Made by a program: the position numbers and the translations under genes
From: a virus
Direction: 5' to 3' (one strand)
Virus record (IMG/VR): IMGVR_UViG_3300050138_000120
Location: 1-34,100 of that record
DNA length: 34,100 nt
Shown here: positions 1 through 14,267 of the stretch, piece by piece
How the letters are laid out: each line of letters opens with the position of its first letter
How positions within the stretch are numbered: position 1 is the first letter of the stretch
The notes under the pieces: generated by a model
Told to the model about the DNA's origin: nothing
The model's database searches: none
The model's input: only the letters and a program-made list of their open reading frames with translations

Positions 1-113
1 CCGTCGTCGATCGCCCATGAGAACAGCATCACCTCGACCTTCTCGGCGTACCGATAGGTGCCCCACTTGATCGGGGTCTCGCAAAAAGTTTCCGTATCCC
101 CCCAGAGATTCAC
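1..113 (-). CDS. DNA polymerase, family A (N-terminus, partial at window edge)
   Basis: About 37 N-terminal codons lie on the minus strand and the gene continues past the left edge. The product begins VNLWGDTETF and continues through ETPIKWGTYRYAE and EVMLFSWAIDD. This matches the start of phage family A DNA polymerases, where the D-x-E of DTETF is ExoI of the 3'-5' proofreading domain. The role would be replication of phage DNA. The GTG start at 113 overlaps the TGA of the upstream gene (GTGA), the coupling used throughout this operon, which supports this start. DUF2815 and DUF2800 upstream are usual partners of such polymerases in phages. The fragment is too short for the open reading frame alone to prove it, so the call rests on motif and context. 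Confidence 0.72.
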   Translation of the reverse strand, partial: MNLWGDTETFCETPIKWGTYRYAEKVEVMLFSWAIDD

Positions 114-475
114 ATCGCCGCCTGTGCCTGTGCTGCAGATGAGAAGCCCATCCTGCAAACCTCGCAGAACTTCTGGCCCGGCCAATGATTGCAGCGCGGC
201 TCCGCTCCTTCCGGTGCCACTGGCTCGGGGTGGGAGGCGAGGGCATATTCCAGCATTCGCACGCCGACGCAAACGCCAATCGCCTTGGCATGTCTGGTGG
301 CACGGCTGCGCTCAACCTCTGCGTTCTGCGCGACGTACTGATAGTTCGTGTACGGATACGCTTGGCTCACCTCGTCGAAGACTTTGGTCACGAGTGCGCG
401 TTTCTCGTCCTTCGTCAGCCCCACCGGCTCACTCGGCCTCGCTGGCTGTGCTTCGCATCCATCGGATGTGGTCAT
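110..475 (-). CDS. Phage protein with C-terminal Cys/His cluster (121 aa)
   Basis: The start chosen is the ATG at 475, which overlaps the TGA of the upstream zinc-ribbon gene (ATGA). The open frame extends much further upstream, but that part is an out-of-frame reading of the neighbouring genes. The protein has a variable N-terminus, a helical middle (residues about 20-82) and a Cys/His cluster at C95, H97, C104 and C107, followed by an Ala/Gln-rich tail. The cluster suggests one bound zinc ion. I do not recognise the family. Its place between a zinc ribbon and the polymerase start suggests a DNA-metabolism accessory, but that is inference. Confidence 0.7.
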   Translation of the reverse strand: MTTSDGCEAQPARPSEPVGLTKDEKRALVTKVFDEVSQAYPYTNYQYVAQNAEVERSRATRHAKAIGVCVGVRMLEYALASHPEPVAPEGAEPRCNHWPGQKFCEVCRMGFSSAAQAQAAM

Positions 476-672
476 GAGTCGATCCCTTCTTCCCACCAGC
501 CTTTGCCACACGCCTGGCAGTCGTATCGATAGTCGGTCCAGCCACCGCAAGACGAATCCCATTCCTTCTCGACAACCTCGCCGACCTTCCCGCAGTGACG
601 ACATGGAGTGGCGACCGTCTTGTCGGGCGCGAATGCCCCGGCTGAATCTGGCATGCTTGGCGTATGGCTCAT
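472..672 (-). CDS. Small zinc-ribbon protein (66 aa)
   Basis: A 66-aa protein with two CxxC knuckles, C24-x2-C27 (TPCRHCGKVGE) and C52-x2-C55 (YDCQACGKGWWEEG), about 25 residues apart. This is the standard layout of a four-cysteine zinc ribbon. Such small ribbons are common in phage early operons, and their specific partners are usually unknown. The ATG at 672 overlaps the TGA of the upstream 237-aa gene, and its own TGA overlaps the next ATG, so it lies inside an uninterrupted translationally coupled chain. Zinc binding is well supported by the motif; nucleic-acid binding is only inferred. Confidence 0.8.
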   Translation of the reverse strand: MSHTPSMPDSAGAFAPDKTVATPCRHCGKVGEVVEKEWDSSCGGWTDYRYDCQACGKGWWEEGIDS

Positions 673-1382
673 TTCTGCTCCTTGGGTTTGCGTCCATCGG
701 ACGAGGGAGGGGCGACCTCACTCTCGGATGCTGTTAGCTTGCCGCCCCAGCCGGAGAAGAGGAAGTCCGGCGCGACACCTGTGATGGTCATGAACGCACC
801 CTCGACGGCACGGCGCATGGGGAAGTCCGCTCCGCCCGCGACATCGCAGACCGCGCCGATCTTGCATTCCCAAATCCGCTCGCCAACCGGCCGGCGCACC
901 GCCTCACTCTGCGTGGTTGCCGTCTGTGCGGCACGCATCAGAGAAGAAACGAGGACAACCTCACTGCCGGGTGGGCAATTTCCAGCCTTGATCTTGTGAC
1001 GGCGGATCATCGAAGTAAGCGATTCGCCCTCGACAGCTTCCCGCAGAGCGTGAGTTAGGTTGCGAATCGTTTCATCGCGCTCGTCCTCACTCTGCGGGGT
1101 TGCCGTCTGTGCGACCCTACGGCCAGCTTCAAAACCCTTCTCGGCTGAGATAGCGTCCGTCGAGACGTTGCGGCCCTTGTCGTGCCACCAACGTAGGAAT
1201 TCGGCGCTCCGCTCGGCTGGCAACTCGTCAGGCGAAAGCAACGGCGGGGTTGCCGTCTGTGCGCGGCGCATGTGCGCTTCTGCTGCTGCCTTCGCCACGT
1301 CCAGCGCAACGCCGAGCGCGATGCGAATCAGCGCATCCCTCTCCTGCTCCCTCGGATCGACCGGAGTTGTTTTTTCTGTCAT
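669..1382 (-). CDS. Hypothetical phage protein with AQTAT internal repeats (237 aa)
   Basis: No family is recognised. The start ATG at 1382 follows a near-perfect Shine-Dalgarno (GGAGGTGAT, 6 nt away), the strongest ribosome-binding site of this operon. The N-terminal half is helical and charged. A short peptide recurs three times, AQTATPPLLSPDE, AQTATPQSEDERD and AQTATTQSEAVRR, each after an Arg/Ala-rich helix, and is encoded by near-identical DNA. The C-terminal quarter reads as a compact beta-rich segment ending in charged residues. The repeats look like linkers between three small helical units. Its TGA overlaps the start of the zinc-ribbon gene. Confidence 0.75.
   Translation of the reverse strand: MTEKTTPVDPREQERDALIRIALGVALDVAKAAAEAHMRRAQTATPPLLSPDELPAERSAEFLRWWHDKGRNVSTDAISAEKGFEAGRRVAQTATPQSEDERDETIRNLTHALREAVEGESLTSMIRRHKIKAGNCPPGSEVVLVSSLMRAAQTATTQSEAVRRPVGERIWECKIGAVCDVAGGADFPMRRAVEGAFMTITGVAPDFLFSGWGGKLTASESEVAPPSSDGRKPKEQK
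904..1263 (-). repeat. Three dispersed in-frame copies of a 20-27 bp repeat inside the 237-aa gene
   Basis: Copies lie at 904-930, 1087-1113 and 1244-1263 on the plus-strand reading. The first two share 27 bp with one mismatch; the third shares the last 20 bp, centred on GGTTGCCGTCTGTGCG. On the coding (minus) strand each encodes an AQTAT peptide. The copies are 183 and about 150 bp apart and in frame, so they are protein-level repeats or small recombination scars rather than a tandem array. Confidence 0.85.
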
Positions 1383-1436
1383 GTTGAATCACCTCCGGCA
1401 AGAGGCCTCGTCGTCGAAGCCCCAAGCCGCAGAGGA

Positions 1437-2051
1437 CTAGACCAGATCGTCGGCGTTGCTGCCTTCGGTGATCTCGTCGAACGAAGCGTCATCGGGCGTG
1501 ATGCCACCGCTGAACGCATCGCCGCCCTTGGCACGCTGGATGCCCACCAGCTCGGCGCGGATCGCCTTGCCGTTGGCGTTGTCCTGCGCCCAGAAGTTGA
1601 TCTGCATCACGACGAAACATCCGCTGTAGATGCGACCGGCCTTGCCCGCGTACATCTCATTGCTCGGCTGGTAGATGGGCGAGCGGTCGCTGTCGAGGAC
1701 GAGTGGCCGGCCGTCGTTCTCCTTGCGGTGTGCCGTCAGCGCCCAGTGGTCTTGATACCCGTCGTAAGCCTTGCGCTTACCGTCCATCAGGCACGAGAGC
1801 TTCGAGTCGCTGAGAGCGTTCTCGAGGATCGGCTTGTACTTGGCGGCCCACTTCTCTTTGGCGCATTCCTCCATGCCCTGATCGACCACCTTCTTCCAGG
1901 GTGAACCGTAGGGGAAGAGCGCAGTCGCGGACCAGCGACGCTGATCACCCTCGCGTTGCTTCTTGCCTTGGTAGAACTCGGGCTCGGCGAGCACGATGAA
2001 CGAGCAGCGAACCGGATCTGACGGGCTGCCAAGTTTGATGATGTGGGGCAT
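1437..2051 (-). CDS. DUF2815 family phage ssDNA-binding protein (204 aa)
   Basis: The protein starts MPHIIKLGSPSDPVRCSF, reads KRKAYDGYQDHWALTAHRKE in the middle and has GRIYSGCFVVMQINFWAQDN near the end. This layout is typical of DUF2815, a phage family of single-stranded DNA-binding proteins found beside DUF2800 and family A polymerases. It would coat ssDNA during replication or recombination. The C-terminal tail is acidic (ITPDDASFDEI, ending ADDLV) and resembles the tail of the DUF2800 protein in this window, suggesting a shared docking peptide. The ATG at 2051 has an AAAGGAG ribosome-binding site 9 nt upstream. The length is normal for the family. Confidence 0.88.
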   Translation of the reverse strand: MPHIIKLGSPSDPVRCSFIVLAEPEFYQGKKQREGDQRRWSATALFPYGSPWKKVVDQGMEECAKEKWAAKYKPILENALSDSKLSCLMDGKRKAYDGYQDHWALTAHRKENDGRPLVLDSDRSPIYQPSNEMYAGKAGRIYSGCFVVMQINFWAQDNANGKAIRAELVGIQRAKGGDAFSGGITPDDASFDEITEGSNADDLV

Positions 2052-2129
2052 GGGACGAAACTCCTTTGGAGTGGTGGTGAAACTCGAAAACGCGCTGAAA
2101 AAATATGCGGGAAATTAGGAAATTCGGGG

Positions 2130-2411
2130 TCAGAAGCTCGACGGCTGTGCGACGGCGCGCGTGAGGGCCATGAGACCCTCTTGGAAGTGCGTGTTCGCAA
2201 TGGCGATCCAGCGTTCGGGCTGTGCGGCATCGAGCCTTGCCAGTTCGCCGGCCGGCATGGGGATGACGGCGCGCTGCGACGCGACGCGAATCCGCACAGA
2301 ATTCAATATGGCGGTCATCGACGCGCCGTGGCCTTTGATCAGGTTCATTGCGCTGATGTCGGCCTCGCTCAGGTCGCGGTAGCCGGTGATCTTGCGGTGC
2401 TGGTTTTCCAT
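2130..2411 (-). CDS. Acb2/Tad1-like cyclic-nucleotide sponge (anti-CBASS / anti-Thoeris candidate)
   Basis: The 93-aa protein reads ITGYRDLSEADISAMNLIK at the N-terminus, then PERWIAIANTHFQEG and ALTRAVAQPSSF at the end. This is the signature of the Acb2/Tad1 hairpin family (formerly a DUF). Acb2 proteins form hexamers that sequester the cyclic di- and trinucleotides made by CBASS cyclases, while Tad1 relatives bind the Thoeris signal gcADPR. Tyr11, Lys26 and Arg67 stand at the same numbers as ligand-contacting residues I recall for Pseudomonas phage PaMx33 Acb2; that recollection should be checked. Placement in the early operon between DUF2815 and DUF2800 fits early immune evasion. The ATG at 2411 has AAAGGAA upstream. 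Family membership is likely; ligand choice is unknown. Confidence 0.82.
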   Translation of the reverse strand: MENQHRKITGYRDLSEADISAMNLIKGHGASMTAILNSVRIRVASQRAVIPMPAGELARLDAAQPERWIAIANTHFQEGLMALTRAVAQPSSF

Positions 2412-2424
2412 TGCTTGTTTCCTT

Positions 2425-2625
2425 TCAGTGGTCAGAGTCGACTACATTCCAGATGTGGATGTCGCTGTAGCGAATGAATGACGCCAGGGTTTCCGCGAAC
2501 GCGCTTGTGCTGCACTCGAAGATCGCCGTTTCTGCGTAAGAGCCGCGGTCGGTTGTGACTTCCACGAGCCACGCATTCCTGTCGACAGCAATTTTCTCGT
2601 AGGTGACCAAGACGGTCGTTTTCAT
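2425..2625 (-). CDS. Small hypothetical phage protein (66 aa)
   Basis: The start is the ATG at 2625, which overlaps the TGA of the DUF2800 gene (ATGA); the open frame upstream of it is antisense noise. The protein reads MKTTVLVTYEKIAVDRNAWL and continues as a beta-beta-alpha-beta pattern ending IRYSDIHIWNVVDSDH. It is probably a compact soluble domain without Cys clusters or membrane segments. It sits between the DUF2800 nuclease and the Acb2-like gene, 13 nt before the latter's start. No function is recognised. Confidence 0.72.
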   Translation of the reverse strand: MKTTVLVTYEKIAVDRNAWLVEVTTDRGSYAETAIFECSTSAFAETLASFIRYSDIHIWNVVDSDH

Positions 2626-3968
2626 ACGAGATCGGCTCCGGGGTTCTCGTCGATCGCCTCGAACGACGAGTCGTCGGGGCCGGTCGGCGAGTAGGGGGTC
2701 TTGATCGCCGAGATCGGCTTGACCGAGGGCACGGGCTTGCTGCGCACGATGTTGGCCTGCATGCCTTTCCATTGCCGGTCGCTGATGACAGGCGGCTCCT
2801 TCGGCTTCGCGACCTTTTTGCCTTGCTTGTAGCCAGCGAGCTTCTCGGCGTCGGTGGGCGAGATCAGCTTCAGGTGGAAGGCCTTCTCGATCGGCAGCCG
2901 CATGGTCTTGCGCAAGTAGGTCTTCGCGGCCTCCTCGTCTTTCCAGTTGCGTGCGCCTTCACGGCCCAACTCGAGACCGAAGCCTTCGACGGGCCTGCCC
3001 AGGAGCAGACGGCGCTCGGTCTCGGCGCGTACGGCTTTGATGAAGTCTTCCATCTCGCCTGCGCACTTCATCGCCAAGGCGAGATCATCAACCGGGTAGT
3101 CGGTCACGGTCTGCCGGATCTCGTTCGAGAATCCGCCTTGTTGCTCGTCGATCCATTCAAAACATTCGCCCACAACCCGCTCCATCTTCGCGCGCTTTGC
3201 CGGGCACGTGCTCATGGCACGGCAGAACGCGCAGTCGTCCTCGTTGGGGTCAGGGTTCAGATAGGTCGTGTTCCAGTCTTCGATCGGAACGTGCCCGTGC
3301 TCTGCAGTGGCAGACTCGACAAACTGCGCCGCATCGTGCGCGTCTTTCGCGAACACCATCAGCTCCTCGATCGTGATCACCGACTCGCGCATGCCGCCGT
3401 GCTGCGGCTGGTAGATCATCAGCCGGATGCTGCGGATGTCGTGACTCAGCTCGTAGCGCGACAGGCAGCCGAGCGCGTAGAGCATGAGCTGCGTGTTGCC
3501 TTCGATCGGAACGAACCGGAACCCGGTCTTCAGGTCGCAGATGCACAGCTCGTGCGTGGTCGGGTCTTCGAGCGGCACGAGCCACTGCGCGTCCATCGTG
3601 CCGAACTGATCAGGCACGCCCACGTACTCACTGAACTCGACGCGCTGTTCGACGTGCAACTCGCGATCGACCGTGAGCGCGCGGATCGTGTCGATGTAGT
3701 CGTTGACGGTCTCGGCGTGTTCTTGGGTGAAGAGCACCGTGCGGACCGGCTCGACATCCACGTCGCTGACCTTGACCTGTTGGCCGATAGCCTCCGTCGC
3801 GTAGCCGCCTTCAACGAGGTGGATGCTCGCAAGGGCGTGCATCGCCGTGCCGCTGTCACTCCACTCGTTGCTGTTGTTCGGGAACGCGGACTCGAGCACG
3901 ATCGAGCCGGCGCAGGTGAGCCAGCGATGCGATCCGCTGGGCGAGAGACGGGCGTGTTGGCCGGGCAT
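2622..3968 (-). CDS. DUF2800 family Cas4/RecB-like nuclease (448 aa)
   Basis: The N-terminus HARLSPSGSHRWLTCAGS is the hallmark of DUF2800, a phage PD-(D/E)xK family. Visible motifs, in order: C19; the catalytic core D126 (GTMDAQW), D145-x-K147 (CDLKTG) and Q160; then C246-x2-C249-x5-C255. One N-terminal plus three C-terminal cysteines is the Cas4/AddB 4Fe-4S pattern. It probably acts as an ssDNA exonuclease in replication or recombination together with DUF2815. The start at 3968 gives a TGATG overlap with the upstream gene and a GGAG ribosome-binding site; a GTG one codon earlier is possible. The C-terminus (GPDDSSFEAID, ending GADLV) resembles the DUF2815 tail. Confidence 0.88.
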   Translation of the reverse strand: MPGQHARLSPSGSHRWLTCAGSIVLESAFPNNSNEWSDSGTAMHALASIHLVEGGYATEAIGQQVKVSDVDVEPVRTVLFTQEHAETVNDYIDTIRALTVDRELHVEQRVEFSEYVGVPDQFGTMDAQWLVPLEDPTTHELCICDLKTGFRFVPIEGNTQLMLYALGCLSRYELSHDIRSIRLMIYQPQHGGMRESVITIEELMVFAKDAHDAAQFVESATAEHGHVPIEDWNTTYLNPDPNEDDCAFCRAMSTCPAKRAKMERVVGECFEWIDEQQGGFSNEIRQTVTDYPVDDLALAMKCAGEMEDFIKAVRAETERRLLLGRPVEGFGLELGREGARNWKDEEAAKTYLRKTMRLPIEKAFHLKLISPTDAEKLAGYKQGKKVAKPKEPPVISDRQWKGMQANIVRSKPVPSVKPISAIKTPYSPTGPDDSSFEAIDENPGADLV

Positions 3969-4156
3969 CACTTGGCTCCCAGTGCTCTGATGAACAGTCG
4001 ACTGGCGGCAAGGTACTGCTCGTCCAGCTCGTTGATTCGCTTTGCGTTGTCAGGATCGTCGCGGTCGGGGCAGGTGACGATCTCGTTGCTGATCTCTTGC
4101 TTCAGTAGCTGGAGCCCTTGCACGACGATCGCGAGGTTTTTGCCGGTGAATCTCAT
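3968..4156 (-). CDS. Small helical hypothetical protein (62 aa)
   Basis: MRFTGKNLAIVVQGLQLLKQ followed by a second helix (RINELDEQYLAASRLFIRALG) makes a two-helix protein of 62 aa. A Cys-Pro-Asp turn separates the helices. It is coupled on both sides: its ATG overlaps the TGA of the upstream Cys/His gene, and its TGA shares a base with the DUF2800 ATG. No function is recognised. The position directly before DUF2800 is compatible with a nuclease accessory, but nothing in the sequence proves it. Confidence 0.7.
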   Translation of the reverse strand: MRFTGKNLAIVVQGLQLLKQEISNEIVTCPDRDDPDNAKRINELDEQYLAASRLFIRALGAK

Positions 4157-4434
4157 GCGATCTCCGAATCACACGTGCCGTGCGTCTGCGTCGCAGCGAC
4201 ACCGTTCGTCGGCACATCGGCCGGGCGCCAGATGTGGCCGCAAGGCATGGCAGAGGTGAGAGCGGTGCGGCGGGTTTCTCCAGTCGGGGCGTATGCCCAG
4301 GCTCCGCACAAGCAGCGTCGGGATGGGTGGTGTGAGTTGTTGCATGATGCTTTGAAGAGGGGGATCAGCCTCGCAAGGTAGTGGAATCGAACCACGTTTA
4401 TCCAGGGCTTTCCGGCCCGCTGACCCTTCTTCAA
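4153..4434 (-). CDS. Hypothetical Cys/His-rich protein; start uncertain
   Basis: The convincing part is the C-terminal half, RRCLCGAWAYAPTGE then AMPCGHIWRPADVPTN, with a CxC and a CGH that could bind zinc. The stop overlaps the ATG of the next gene (ATGA), which supports the frame. The start is unclear: a TTG at 4434 with an AGAGGG ribosome-binding site gives 93 aa, but the first 28 codons run straight through a strongly folding, tRNA-like element (see 4351-4451), and their translation (VVRFHYLAR) is what a T-arm looks like when read as protein. A shorter product, or a start within that RNA element, is possible. A 58-codon ATG frame at 4345 was considered and is less likely. Confidence 0.45.
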   Translation of the reverse strand: MKKGQRAGKPWINVVRFHYLARLIPLFKASCNNSHHPSRRCLCGAWAYAPTGETRRTALTSAMPCGHIWRPADVPTNGVAATQTHGTCDSEIA

Positions 4435-4451
4435 AACACCCTCTTGCGAGG
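4351..4451 (-). ncRNA. Candidate structured RNA, tRNA-like with pseudoknot potential
   Basis: Four helices can be drawn by eye. P1 pairs 4351-4369 with 4419-4435 (8 + 3 + 5 bp with small interruptions). P2 is GGGC/GCCC with a 6-nt loop (4405-4418). P3 is GTGG/CCAC with a 7-nt loop (4381-4395); on the minus strand it reads GGTTCGATTCC, an exact tRNA T-arm/B-box sequence. A 9-bp helix pairs 4369-4377 with 4443-4451; it encloses P2 and P3 like an acceptor stem and would form a pseudoknot with P1. A canonical D-arm and a 7-nt anticodon loop with U33 are missing, so it is not a normal tRNA. The strand is inferred from the T-arm; function is unknown. Confidence 0.45.
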
Positions 4452-4460
4452 GCGCAACGC

Positions 4461-4844
4461 TCAGGTGAGCGACTCTTCGGGCACCGTCGCCTTCTCGAGC
4501 GCGGCCAGGAAATCCGCGTACTGCCCGGGTATCAGTTCCTTGCCGTTCTTGGCGCCGAACGTCTTCAGCACGGCGATGGCCTTCGGCTTGTCCGTGGCCG
4601 CGGCAGCGCTGATCGCCTTGACCACCGTCTCATACGGGATGCCCGATACGGTCTCGGGGGTCGCGGGCGCAGCGACTGCCAGTGCAGTAGGCGGGGTAGG
4701 CGCAGCGGCTGCCGTCGTCGCAGCTTTGACGGACTTTGGGGTAGGGGCAGCCTCGACCTTGGCATCGCTGGCGCGCAGCTTCGCAAGGTTCGTGATCGCT
4801 TCTTCGAGCGAAGCGAAGGTGAGAGTGACAGAGACGGCAGACAT
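4461..4844 (-). CDS. Hypothetical phage protein, first gene of leftward operon (127 aa)
   Basis: Three parts are visible: a conserved N-terminal stretch (VTLTFASLEEAITNLAKL), an Ala/Pro-rich linker (residues about 31-65), and a C-terminal helical domain (TVVKAISAAAATDKPKAI, then GAKNGKELIPGQYADFLAAL). The C-terminal part looks like a small helix-loop-helix module seen in many phage early proteins of unknown function. As the first gene after the operator-bearing divergent region it is probably expressed very early and strongly. The ATG at 4844 has an AAAGGA site 7 nt upstream. The exact role is unknown. Confidence 0.75.
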   Translation of the reverse strand: MSAVSVTLTFASLEEAITNLAKLRASDAKVEAAPTPKSVKAATTAAAAPTPPTALAVAAPATPETVSGIPYETVVKAISAAAATDKPKAIAVLKTFGAKNGKELIPGQYADFLAALEKATVPEESLT

Positions 4845-4894
4845 GGGGCTATCCTTTCGGGTTGGAGTGAGGGTGTGACCGAAGCGAGCTTGCG

Positions 4895-4923
4895 AGCGTG
4901 TATCAGTTGATACGTCTTGTCAA
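4895..4923 (-). promoter_or_regulatory. Leftward early promoter with operator
   Basis: Read on the minus strand, an exact TTGACA (-35) lies at 4923-4918 and the palindrome GTATCAGTTGATAC lies at 4900-4913, inside what would be the spacer. The -10 at the usual spacing (CACGCT or ACACGC) is poor, so the promoter may be weak or activator-dependent. A repressor on the palindrome would block polymerase for the leftward operon. Confidence 0.6.
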
Positions 4924-4994
4924 TAGGGGTTCGAGGCCTGACGAAAAATAAATTTCGCTCGCGCGCCGAAAGCGACCGTGATCGAAATCAGCGC

Positions 4995-5023
4995 TTGTAT
5001 CGTTTGATACAAGGTGCTAGCCT
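4995..5023 (+). promoter_or_regulatory. Rightward promoter with variant operator, nearly leaderless transcript
   Basis: TTGTAT (4995-5000), a 17-nt spacer and TAGCCT (5018-5023) form a sigma70-type promoter. The variant palindrome GTATCGTTTGATAC (4997-5010) overlaps the -35 and spacer. Transcription would start near 5029-5031, 2-4 nt before the ATG at 5033, and no Shine-Dalgarno is present. The pattern resembles lambda PRM, where the cI message is leaderless. Confidence 0.62.
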
Positions 5024-5032
5024 AGCGTCCGC

Positions 5033-5329
5033 ATGAAAGAGCCGAAACCCAACAAACCCTTGCTCGCGCTCTGGAAGGTGATCACGCCGGACCTGCGCCG
5101 CCAGCTCGCGAAGCTCGCCCGCACCTCGTCGGGAAGCCTGCGCCAGTACGCCGAGGGTCGGCGTGCCACGACGCCCGCGCTCGCGATCCGGCTCGAGAAG
5201 GCCGTGACCGAGCTGGGGTTCAAGACCATCTGGCGCACGCAGCTCAATGACACGTGCGGCAAGTGCGAATTCGCCAAGGCAAGCCTGAGCAAGAAGGGGA
5301 AGCAAGATGCTGATCAAGCTGTCGAATGA
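5033..5329 (+). CDS. Cro/YdaS-like HTH transcriptional regulator (98 aa)
   Basis: Residues about 21-58 (RRQLAKLARTSSGSLRQYAE, then PALAIRLEKAV) match the helix-turn-helix of small phage Cro/YdaS-type regulators, in which a short 'xTSxGxLRQYAxGRR' turn precedes a helix that starts 'PxLAxRIEKA'. A CxxC follows at C75/C78. It probably binds the palindromes at 4900 and 4997 that flank its own promoter, so autoregulation and control of the leftward operon are expected. The transcript appears almost leaderless, with no ribosome-binding site. The last 23 nt overlap the next gene. DNA binding is likely; whether it acts as lysis/lysogeny switch or simple early repressor is not visible. Confidence 0.72.
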   Translation: MKEPKPNKPLLALWKVITPDLRRQLAKLARTSSGSLRQYAEGRRATTPALAIRLEKAVTELGFKTIWRTQLNDTCGKCEFAKASLSKKGKQDADQAVE

Positions 5330-7243: not shown

Positions 7244-7800
7244 CCGCCGCCCTCGTGGCGTCGCTGGCGCCACTCATCAGCCGCGTCCGCACTGACGTCA
7301 CGGCTCGCAAGAGCGACGACGGCCGGCAGTCGTGGACACGCGAGAGCCTGACCGAGAAGCGCTTGCTTGCGCACGTGCTCGGTGGCACGGCGCGCGGTGT
7401 CTCGCAGATACGAGCCGGCGAGAGCGTTACCCGGGTCGCGGTGCTGGATTTCGACTCGCACGGCGGTGAGGTGGACTGGCCGGCGATGAGCGCCGTGGTG
7501 CTGCGCGTCGTCGATACGCTCGAGATGGCCTACGGGTTGCGCGCGACCCTCTGGCGTAGCAGCGGCGGCCGAGGCGTGCACGCTTATTACCTCTGGAACG
7601 AGCCGCAGGACGCCTACAGCGTGCGCGAGACGCTGCGCCAGGGGCTGGAGGCTTGTGGCTTGCGTAGCGGCACGAAAGGCGTCGGTGCCGGCGAGGTTGA
7701 AGTGTTCCCAAAGAGCAATGAAGTGGGCGCTGATGGTTTCGGCAACCAAGTGATCTTGCCTTTGTGCGGCGCGAGCGTGCCGCTGGAGATCGTGGCGTGA
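7240..7800 (+). CDS. Small archaeo-eukaryotic-type primase domain protein (186 aa)
   Basis: Three AEP motifs are visible: motif I at D70-x-D72 (VAVLDFDSH), motif II at 107-115 (RSSGGRGVHAYYLW, with His114), and motif III around 154-172 (VEVFPKS, then GNQVILPL). The spacing resembles TOTE/PrimPol-type catalytic cores, which make RNA or DNA primers with two metal ions. At 186 aa it is only the catalytic domain; the PriCT and SF3 helicase parts usually fused to it are encoded separately at 8914. The GTG start overlaps the preceding TGA. Primase activity is well supported by motifs, not by length. Confidence 0.8.
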   Translation: MTAALVASLAPLISRVRTDVTARKSDDGRQSWTRESLTEKRLLAHVLGGTARGVSQIRAGESVTRVAVLDFDSHGGEVDWPAMSAVVLRVVDTLEMAYGLRATLWRSSGGRGVHAYYLWNEPQDAYSVRETLRQGLEACGLRSGTKGVGAGEVEVFPKSNEVGADGFGNQVILPLCGASVPLEIVA

Positions 7801-8594
7801 TTTCTCACGACTCGCGCATCGTCTGCAATTTCTCGTCCGGTGCTGCCTCGGCGGTGGCGACGAAGCTGATCCTGGGAACCTACGGGCTCACCCACGAGAT
7901 CGAGATCGTCAACGCGTTCTTGAAAGAAGAGCACGAGGACAACCGTCGTTTCCTGCACGATTGCGAGGCGTGGTTCGCTAGGCCGATCACAGTGCTGCGC
8001 GACGAAAAATACGGCGCGAGCGCTCGCGAGGTGTTTCGACGCAAGCGTTATCTCAAAGGTCTCCGTGGCGCACCGTGCAGCGGCGCACTGAAGCGCGACA
8101 TCCTCGAAGCGTTCCAGCGCCCAGGCGACACGACCGTGCTCGGCTACACGGCCGACACGGCCGACACGGCGCGGTGGGAGCACTGGCAGGACTCTCATAA
8201 CGAATTGCGTGGCGTGGCGCCGCTGATCGAAGCCGGCCTCACGAAGAGCGACGTGCTCGCGATGGTCGAGCGTCAAGGTCTCGTGCTTCCGCTCATGTAC
8301 CGGCTAGGGTTCCATAACGCGAACTGCATCGGTTGCGTGAAGGGCGGTGAAGGCTACTGGAACAAGATCCGCAAGCACTTCCCCGCAGCTTTTGAAGAGA
8401 TGGCTCAGATCGAGCAGACGATCGGCTACGGCGCGTTCCTGTTTCGCATCCGCAGCGGCCCTCTCAAAGGCCAGCGCTTCAGTCTGCGCGAACTGAAGCC
8501 GGATGCCGGCCGCTATCAAGACGAGCCTTCGATCGAGTGCGGAGCTTCGTGCGAGATGGCCGAAGAGTCACCCGCTTGGGACGACCTGACATGA
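7797..8594 (+). CDS. PP-loop ATP pyrophosphatase / PAPS-reductase-like protein (265 aa)
   Basis: The N-terminus IVCNFSSGAASAVATKLIL is a PP-loop of the adenine-nucleotide alpha-hydrolase superfamily, with SSGAAS in place of the standard SGGxDS. Further family marks are RDEKYGASAREVF (69-80), GAPCSGALKRD (C94), and HNANCIGCVKGGEGYWNK (C177, C180), plus C248 and C252 near the end. The four late cysteines may hold an Fe-S cluster or zinc. Phage members are usually annotated PAPS reductase, but assimilation of sulfate is unlikely here; nucleotide or DNA modification is an alternative. The GTG at 7797 overlaps the primase stop (GTGA). The product chemistry is unknown. Confidence 0.78.
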   Translation: MISHDSRIVCNFSSGAASAVATKLILGTYGLTHEIEIVNAFLKEEHEDNRRFLHDCEAWFARPITVLRDEKYGASAREVFRRKRYLKGLRGAPCSGALKRDILEAFQRPGDTTVLGYTADTADTARWEHWQDSHNELRGVAPLIEAGLTKSDVLAMVERQGLVLPLMYRLGFHNANCIGCVKGGEGYWNKIRKHFPAAFEEMAQIEQTIGYGAFLFRIRSGPLKGQRFSLRELKPDAGRYQDEPSIECGASCEMAEESPAWDDLT

Positions 8595-13136: not shown

Positions 13137-14267
13137 CTAGCGCATCGCGAGCAGTTGCTCGAATGCGCTCGTCTTCATCTCATCGCCGCCGTTAAACCAT
13201 GCCGACTGCATGCGATGGCTGTCCGTCTTCGCAGAGGCCTTGTGATCCACGTATTCCGTGACTGCGTTCAGCATGCCCCATGCGGTGCCGCGCACGCCTG
13301 ACAGGTTGCTACCGATCGCGGCGCCACGAAACAGGCGCAGGATCTCGGCTTCGCCTTTGGGCGCGCGCCGCGTGTCGGCGTCGACATCGGCGAGCTTCAC
13401 GGTGCCACCGAGTAAACGCGCGAAGTCTTGCGAGCTGGATGCTGACGAGAGAATGCGCGCGGTTTCGGCTTGAGCTTCTGCGATCGTTGCGAGCTTCTTT
13501 GCGGCATCCTCGGGACGGAGCAGGTTACGCACGAAGTCGCAAGCCTTGTCGTCGTTCATACGCACTTGCGACAAAGACTCGCAGGCCTCGGCAACCTCAC
13601 GCACTTGTGCGACGCCGAGCTGATCCTTGATCTTGTCGGCATCGAACGTGGTGCGGTGGCTGAGGTTGACAACATGCTTGTTTTTCTCGCTCATCGCGGC
13701 GCTGAGGGTGTTATTGCAGACAACGCGCGTCAGCACGTGCCGTGCCGTTGTCTTGGCTGATCCGTCGCACGAGGTAGCGAGCAACAAGTAACCCTTCACG
13801 ATGTCACCTGATGCGAACGTGAAGCTCTCGCCGAGGTTCGCAGTAGCGTAAAACTTCTTGCCGCCGAAGAGCGTGCCAGCGGTCTCGAGCTTCACGCCAA
13901 GCGTAGCGCTCAAGTCGTGAAAGAATTCCAGCACTTGCGCGGGTTGCACGGTCTTGTACTTATCGCTGACGATGCCCAGGTCGGCGCCTGTGTCGCTGCG
14001 CATCAGAACATGCGCATCGGCGATCTCGCGCTGATCGTTGCCTTCGCGGTCGGCGAAGTACCTGACCTTCGACCGCAGGATGCGCCAGTCCATGCCGCTG
14101 CAGGTTGCCCATGCATGCGTCATCTGCTCTTGCGATGCGGTGCTGACCGTGAGGCCGTTCGATGCGAGGTAGGCTTCGATCGATTGCCCGAGCTTGTGCC
14201 ATCCAGCCTCGCCGATGTAGGCGAATTCAGCAAGACCCGAGGCGCGAACGGTGATTTCGTGAGACAT
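13137..14267 (-). CDS. DUF932 family phage/plasmid-like protein (376 aa)
   Basis: MSHEITVRASGLAEFAYIGE followed by WHKLGQSIE and, later, RSDTGADLGIVSDKYKTVQP and VLTRVVCNNTLSAAMSEKNK are diagnostic of the DUF932 (TIGR03299-type) family found on phages and plasmids. Its biochemical role is unknown to me; it often sits in accessory early regions. The ATG at 14267 has AAGGA 6 nt upstream. The 376-aa length is within the family range. It is bracketed by two related hairpins and separated from its neighbours by about 75 nt, unlike the ATGA-linked small genes, so it may be an independently acquired cassette. Confidence 0.86.
   Translation of the reverse strand: MSHEITVRASGLAEFAYIGEAGWHKLGQSIEAYLASNGLTVSTASQEQMTHAWATCSGMDWRILRSKVRYFADREGNDQREIADAHVLMRSDTGADLGIVSDKYKTVQPAQVLEFFHDLSATLGVKLETAGTLFGGKKFYATANLGESFTFASGDIVKGYLLLATSCDGSAKTTARHVLTRVVCNNTLSAAMSEKNKHVVNLSHRTTFDADKIKDQLGVAQVREVAEACESLSQVRMNDDKACDFVRNLLRPEDAAKKLATIAEAQAETARILSSASSSQDFARLLGGTVKLADVDADTRRAPKGEAEILRLFRGAAIGSNLSGVRGTAWGMLNAVTEYVDHKASAKTDSHRMQSAWFNGGDEMKTSAFEQLLAMR

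Follow-up and report, generated by a model that had tools for sequence, protein, structure and literature searches.

The phage T4 sponge Acb2 (Vs.4) contacts cGAMP through Y8, H11, K23, R79 and F82, with Tyr8 and Phe82 stacking on the ligand and Tyr8, His11, Lys23 and Arg79 providing hydrogen bonds or salt bridges (PMC10097602), and the trinucleotide site of Acb2 is separate from the dinucleotide pocket (PMC12043709). In Tad1, an N-terminal four-stranded antiparallel β-sheet contributes loops that, with the helices, help to form the pocket for gcADPR (PMC12043709). Acb4, the family described by PF13876, is also an anti-CBASS sponge, and evasion of CBASS was restored when acb4 was put in place of acb2 in phage T4 (PMC11722364). 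Sequestration of dinucleotides by Acb2 is, moreover, what the host defence Panoptes detects, and Acb2 mutants in the binding site escape it (PMC12657218, PMC12657230).

We analyzed a window of 34,100 nucleotides, a 34.1-kb virus fragment with podovirus-like virion genes, in which the initial annotation had proposed a 93-residue sponge of the Acb2/Tad1 family. The open reading frame is present and intact, starts with ATG and is encoded on the minus strand, the plus-strand reading of bases 2130–2411 being unrelated, and all of the family motifs that had been quoted for its product were found: GYRDL at residues 10–14, ISAMNLIK at 19–26, RWIAIANTHFQEG at 67–79 and ALTRAVAQPSSF at 82–93. The sole Pfam match of the protein is PF24729, the Acb2/Tad1 hairpin, at 54.5 bits (E 1.3e-14), about twice the curated cut-off of 27 bits, and it also matches PHROG 717 (E 1.3e-24). 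Comparison by phmmer with 8h2j (Acb2/p26 of phage PaP2) aligned residues 1–93 with 1–93 (E 1.3e-18), and a profile of 46 homologues reached T4 Vs.4 as well (7uq2, E 3.9e-8). The AlphaFold model, a monomer prediction with a mean pLDDT of 91.6, is a helical hairpin in which about 15 residues precede the first of two long helices (16–48 and 65–88) and strands are absent. Foldseek ranked 8h2x/8h2j first (TM 0.86), followed by 7uq2 (TM 0.69), and VIA-align gave Z scores of 11.7, 11.3 and 9.6 for Acb2/Vs.4 structures vs. at most 8.1 for unrelated helical chains, the superposition with Z 11.7 spanning 91 residues. An HMM search placing the protein outside the family had been named as the outcome that would speak against the proposal; when it was run, PF24729, 8h2j and the fold agreed in placing it inside. 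By family membership, predicted fold and conserved contact residues, the window gene encodes Acb2.

The family name covers two kinds of sponge, and it is the Acb2 side that holds. Since PF24729 covers the hairpin shared by Acb2 and Tad1, the family match alone cannot separate Acb2 from a Tad1-type sponge whose main ligand would be gcADPR from Thoeris. The window protein is, however, an all-helical stand-alone hairpin of 93 aa (fetched homologues are about 72–118 aa long) that lacks the N-terminal β-sheet of Tad1, and its sequence matches are to Acb2 and T4 Vs.4 structures only; that Tad1 structures are absent among the reported fold matches excludes nothing by itself. We consider a Tad1-type sponge very unlikely and, because the N-terminal β-domain of Tad1 is missing from the modeled protein, regard the CBASS cyclic di- and trinucleotides, rather than gcADPR, as the likely ligands.

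Profile alignment equates T4 Tyr8, Lys23 and Arg79 with Tyr11, Lys26 and Arg85 of the window protein, three of the five T4 contacts thus being kept. Tyr11 and Lys26 are each present in 120 of 122 distinct homologues and Arg85 in all 122, with the proviso that this set was gathered partly by N-terminal peptide patterns and Tyr11/Lys26 variants may be commoner than it suggests. The other two contacts are altered (H11 to Leu14 and F82 to Ala88); these T4 residues are not conserved in the branch of the window protein, and PaP2 p26 shows the same Leu14/Ala88 state, yet its structure was solved with 3′,3′-cGAMP. The alignment to 8h2j bears out the PaP2/PaMx33-type numbering that had been noted for Tyr11, Lys26 and Arg67, and the ligand role assigned to the first two agrees with that of T4 Tyr8 and Lys23 (PMC10097602). 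Arg67 occurs in 119 of the 122 homologues, T4 having no arginine there; no statement on its role was found in the literature accessible to our search, and its candidacy as a proven trinucleotide contact was dropped on that ground. Judging from sequence and model, the window protein almost certainly soaks up CBASS alarm molecules.

The surroundings of the gene are listed in Table 1. The sponge had been described as lying between DUF2800 and DUF2815 in a replication operon, and both neighbors were recovered: the DUF2800 protein additionally matches PF12705 (26.9 bits) and the phrog_69 exonuclease (253 bits), and the SSB matches phrog_112 (97.5 bits), the PF10991 protein of BcepC6B being annotated as DUF2815. 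The 65-aa ORF on the DUF2800 side had been overlooked, and "replication operon" is better narrowed to an exonuclease/SSB module, in which the position of the sponge recurs among relatives and is not a one-off. In our scans, neither terminator-like sites (minus strand, 4844 to 1437) nor a sigma-70-like promoter (1–5300) was detected, which fits a single transcript.

Table 1. Features around acb2 in the window, and Acb4-family genes found at the corresponding place in related loci.
Feature	Position	Strand	Basis or remark
237-aa ORF, downstream, same gene run	669..1382	minus	no Pfam/PHROG family
Enc34/Gp2.5-type ssDNA-binding protein (SSB), downstream slot boundary	1437..2051	minus	PF10991, 81.8 bits
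acb2, Acb2-type cyclic-oligonucleotide sponge, 93 aa	2130..2411	minus (2411→2130)	PF24729, 8h2j match, AlphaFold model
Putative ribosome-binding site region	2412..2426	minus	AAAGGAA ~8 nt 5′ of the acb2 ATG, read directly from the sequence
65-aa ORF between DUF2800 and acb2	2425..2622	minus	no Pfam family; weak PHROG match, E 0.009
DUF2800/PD-(D/E)XK exonuclease-type protein, upstream slot boundary	2622..3971	minus	PF10926, 199 bits
62-aa ORF, upstream, overlaps DUF2800 start	3968..4156	minus	no Pfam/PHROG family
127-aa ORF, upstream, same gene run	4461..4844	minus	homologue at same relative place in L088
Acb4-family (PF13876) slot gene, L236	6636–7010		
Acb4-family (PF13876) slot gene, L273	4581–4943		
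Acb4-family (PF13876) slot gene, L174	4706–4987		

Empty slots in other modules, together with the early stop reported in acb2 of PaMx41 (PMC12657218), could suggest that acb2 is a decayed or unexpressed remnant. Against this, the intact frame begins with ATG behind what reads as a good ribosome-binding site, the family-conserved residues are kept and the GC content of the gene (0.635) resembles that of the rest of the window (0.621); we hold a remnant to be extremely unlikely.

The nearest named type for the window phage, by SSB and gene content, is a BcepC6B/BPP-1-like podovirus. A search with the DNA for close relatives among named phages returned a 122-bp match to BcepC6B only; relatives of the window SSB escaped a scan with a single sequence and required alignment queries. 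Elsewhere in the window we noted a phosphoadenosine phosphosulfate reductase-like gene of the class of moron genes (7764–8594, plus strand; phrog_424, 155 bits) and a gene for a DUF932 protein (13137–14267, minus strand; PF06067, 174 bits; phrog_1221).

For a survey of the slot between exonuclease and SSB, HMMs of DUF2800 and SSB were run on all fetched loci, which yielded 121 distinct DUF2800–SSB pairs, 54 of them with a gap of at most 120 bp. The closest group, defined by an SSB HMM score of at least 230 bits, consisted of 18 pairs plus the window, and in these 19 modules the slot held Acb2 in 11 cases, Acb4/PF13876 in two and an unfamiliar ORF in two, and was empty in four. Thirteen of the 18 pairs had been found via their neighbors alone, five of these carrying Acb2 and two Acb4; compared with tblastn matches of the window protein in 230 of 50,697 phage records, the rate among these neighbor-found pairs is indicative and not unbiased, since the neighbor queries were built from Acb2-bearing loci. 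PF13876 is matched by the proteins that fill the slot in L273, L236 and the more distant pair L174, which has its gene in the same gap, and not by the window protein; for the L273 protein, the sole PDB match is Acb4 9e4w (E 0.006). Acb4 genes also lie directly 3′ of SSB in more distant modules (L145:5528–6001, L143:5404–6009 and L343, in an ORF ending at 4351). The notion that Acb4 always occupies the exonuclease–SSB slot was rejected, with 2 of 80 fetched Acb4 loci adjoining the module, and the majority of both Acb2 and Acb4 genes sit outside it.

A direct exchange is seen in L234, which carries Acb2, and L236, which carries Acb4. These two are sisters in the SSB tree (support 100/99). At the DNA level they share 79.8% identity across DUF2800 until about 30 bp before its stop, and then 85% identity beginning at the sponge stop codon and continuing through SSB, while blastn found no significant match between the DUF2800 end and the sponge stop. 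This is a clean in-place replacement by a non-homologous sponge of the same reported function. With its open branching, the SSB tree does not discriminate between a single acquisition of sponges and many.

A protein with the Acb2 fold that now serves replication or recombination, for example by assisting the exonuclease or SSB as a small partner, might be kept in position in 11 of 19 modules, and two slot homologues, L088 and L212, lack Tyr11 and have Lys26 changed with the C-terminal half retained. Yet four related modules do without a sponge, Acb2 with all conserved ligand residues is also found in unrelated genome contexts, and the Acb4 that replaces it in place has the binding of CBASS signals in common with it but a different fold, so that we regard such a replication partner as quite unlikely. 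The sponge is dispensable for the module, as the empty slot of close relatives shows. We favor an Acb2 sponge at a slot accepting an exchangeable anti-CBASS gene, which as a whole explanation we judge highly probable; the stronger proposition, that the DUF2800–SSB gap is a position dedicated to anti-CBASS genes, with unrelated sponges swapped in place and altered-pocket Acb2 variants kept, we put at about an even chance.

As regards these variants, L088 and L212 contradict the assumption that every slot member is canonical, and it was rejected. In L088 (7418–7705; two contigs) Phe stands for Tyr11 and Asp for Lys26, and the C-terminal part is 69% identical to the window protein over 36 residues; in L212 (6396–6710; one slot protein shared by four contigs) Tyr11 is absent and an Arg lies near Lys26, the C-terminal half being intact. 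Both proteins still pass PF24729, and that of L088 is predicted to fold as Acb2 (pLDDT 90.8, TM 0.73–0.74). A frameshift behind the changes was rejected, the missing motif occurring in no other frame of those slots, as was the idea that loss of Tyr11/Lys26 is exclusive to slot members: in L272, which lies outside the slot, His replaces Tyr11, and Lys26 is an Arg both there and in L271. Because Panoptes senses dinucleotide sequestration and binding-site mutants escape it, a loss of the dinucleotide pocket in L088 and L212 is an idea worth testing, and the two would be natural test cases for dropping the pocket that Panoptes exploits while keeping trinucleotide binding.

Proteins of other kinds were also observed in the slot. 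Those of L237 (6415–6750; ~107 aa from the second in-frame ATG) and L134 (4273–4632; 119 aa) are candidate new counter-defence genes. The same gap is filled in many distant modules by a conserved protein of 56–70 aa (L379:3319–3489, which is BPP-1 bbp39, L207:4834–5010 and others) with the consensus LPPEAxxLLQQAAxTPITRxDPLARVKAIEKAxERVKRxYPQFFK, for one member of which (L207) a Pfam scan gave no match. In several relatives DUF2800 appears as two separate ORFs (L234:4896–6598, L236:4806–6619, L129:2592–4442 and L237:4896–6415), a split that may stem from a frameshift, from an intervening element or from misassembly.

With regard to mechanism, we infer that the monomer, a two-helix hairpin, would assemble into a hexamer with three pockets between paired protomers, each clamping one cyclic dinucleotide, in which Tyr11 would stack on the base and Lys26 and Arg85 would give polar contacts and salt bridges. 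Cyclic trinucleotides would be held at separate sites at trimer interfaces. Removal of the CBASS second messenger would keep CBASS effectors silent during infection and so protect the phage, and production of the sponge would coincide with that of the replication and recombination proteins, a co-expression deduced from gene order and spacing alone.

Through these findings, a phage group from uncultured samples gains a well-supported Acb2, and the natural one-for-one swap of unrelated sponges between flanks 80–85% identical provides genomic evidence for selection of CBASS evasion at the slot. The slot also offers a rule, based on position, by which more counter-defence genes could be located; if our reading of it is true, the occupants of the L237, L134 and bbp39-family type are candidate undiscovered counter-defence proteins.

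Among known systems, the window protein resembles Acb2 (p26) of PaP2/PaMx33 (PDB 8h2j/8h2x/8ixz) in its length of 93 aa, its full-length alignment at ~42% identity and its predicted fold, and Tyr11, Lys26, Arg67, Thr74 and Arg85 are common to both. In PaMx33, acb2 closes a polymerase/primase/MazG cluster and the window acb2 is likewise near replication genes, but PaP2 and PaMx33 belong to a different phage group, and the window gene lies between exonuclease and SSB. T4 Acb2 is similar in fold and in three of its five cGAMP contacts, and dissimilar in its ~24% identity, in having His11/Phe82 where the window protein has Leu14/Ala88 and in lacking an arginine at the Arg67 position. Tad1 has the PF24729 hairpin in common with the window protein, but the N-terminal β-domain is its own. 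Acb4 (SPO1 Acb4, PDB 9e4w; N4 Acb4) is found in the same slot in L273, L236 and the distant L174, but it is a tetramer of unrelated fold and non-homologous to the window protein. The window protein is thus a member of a known family, and an acb2 adjoining replication genes is also already known from PaMx33; the position shared by Acb2 and Acb4, of which we found no description in the literature searched, forms an exchangeable slot that, as seen in a modest number of mostly metagenomic contigs, we regard as the new part.
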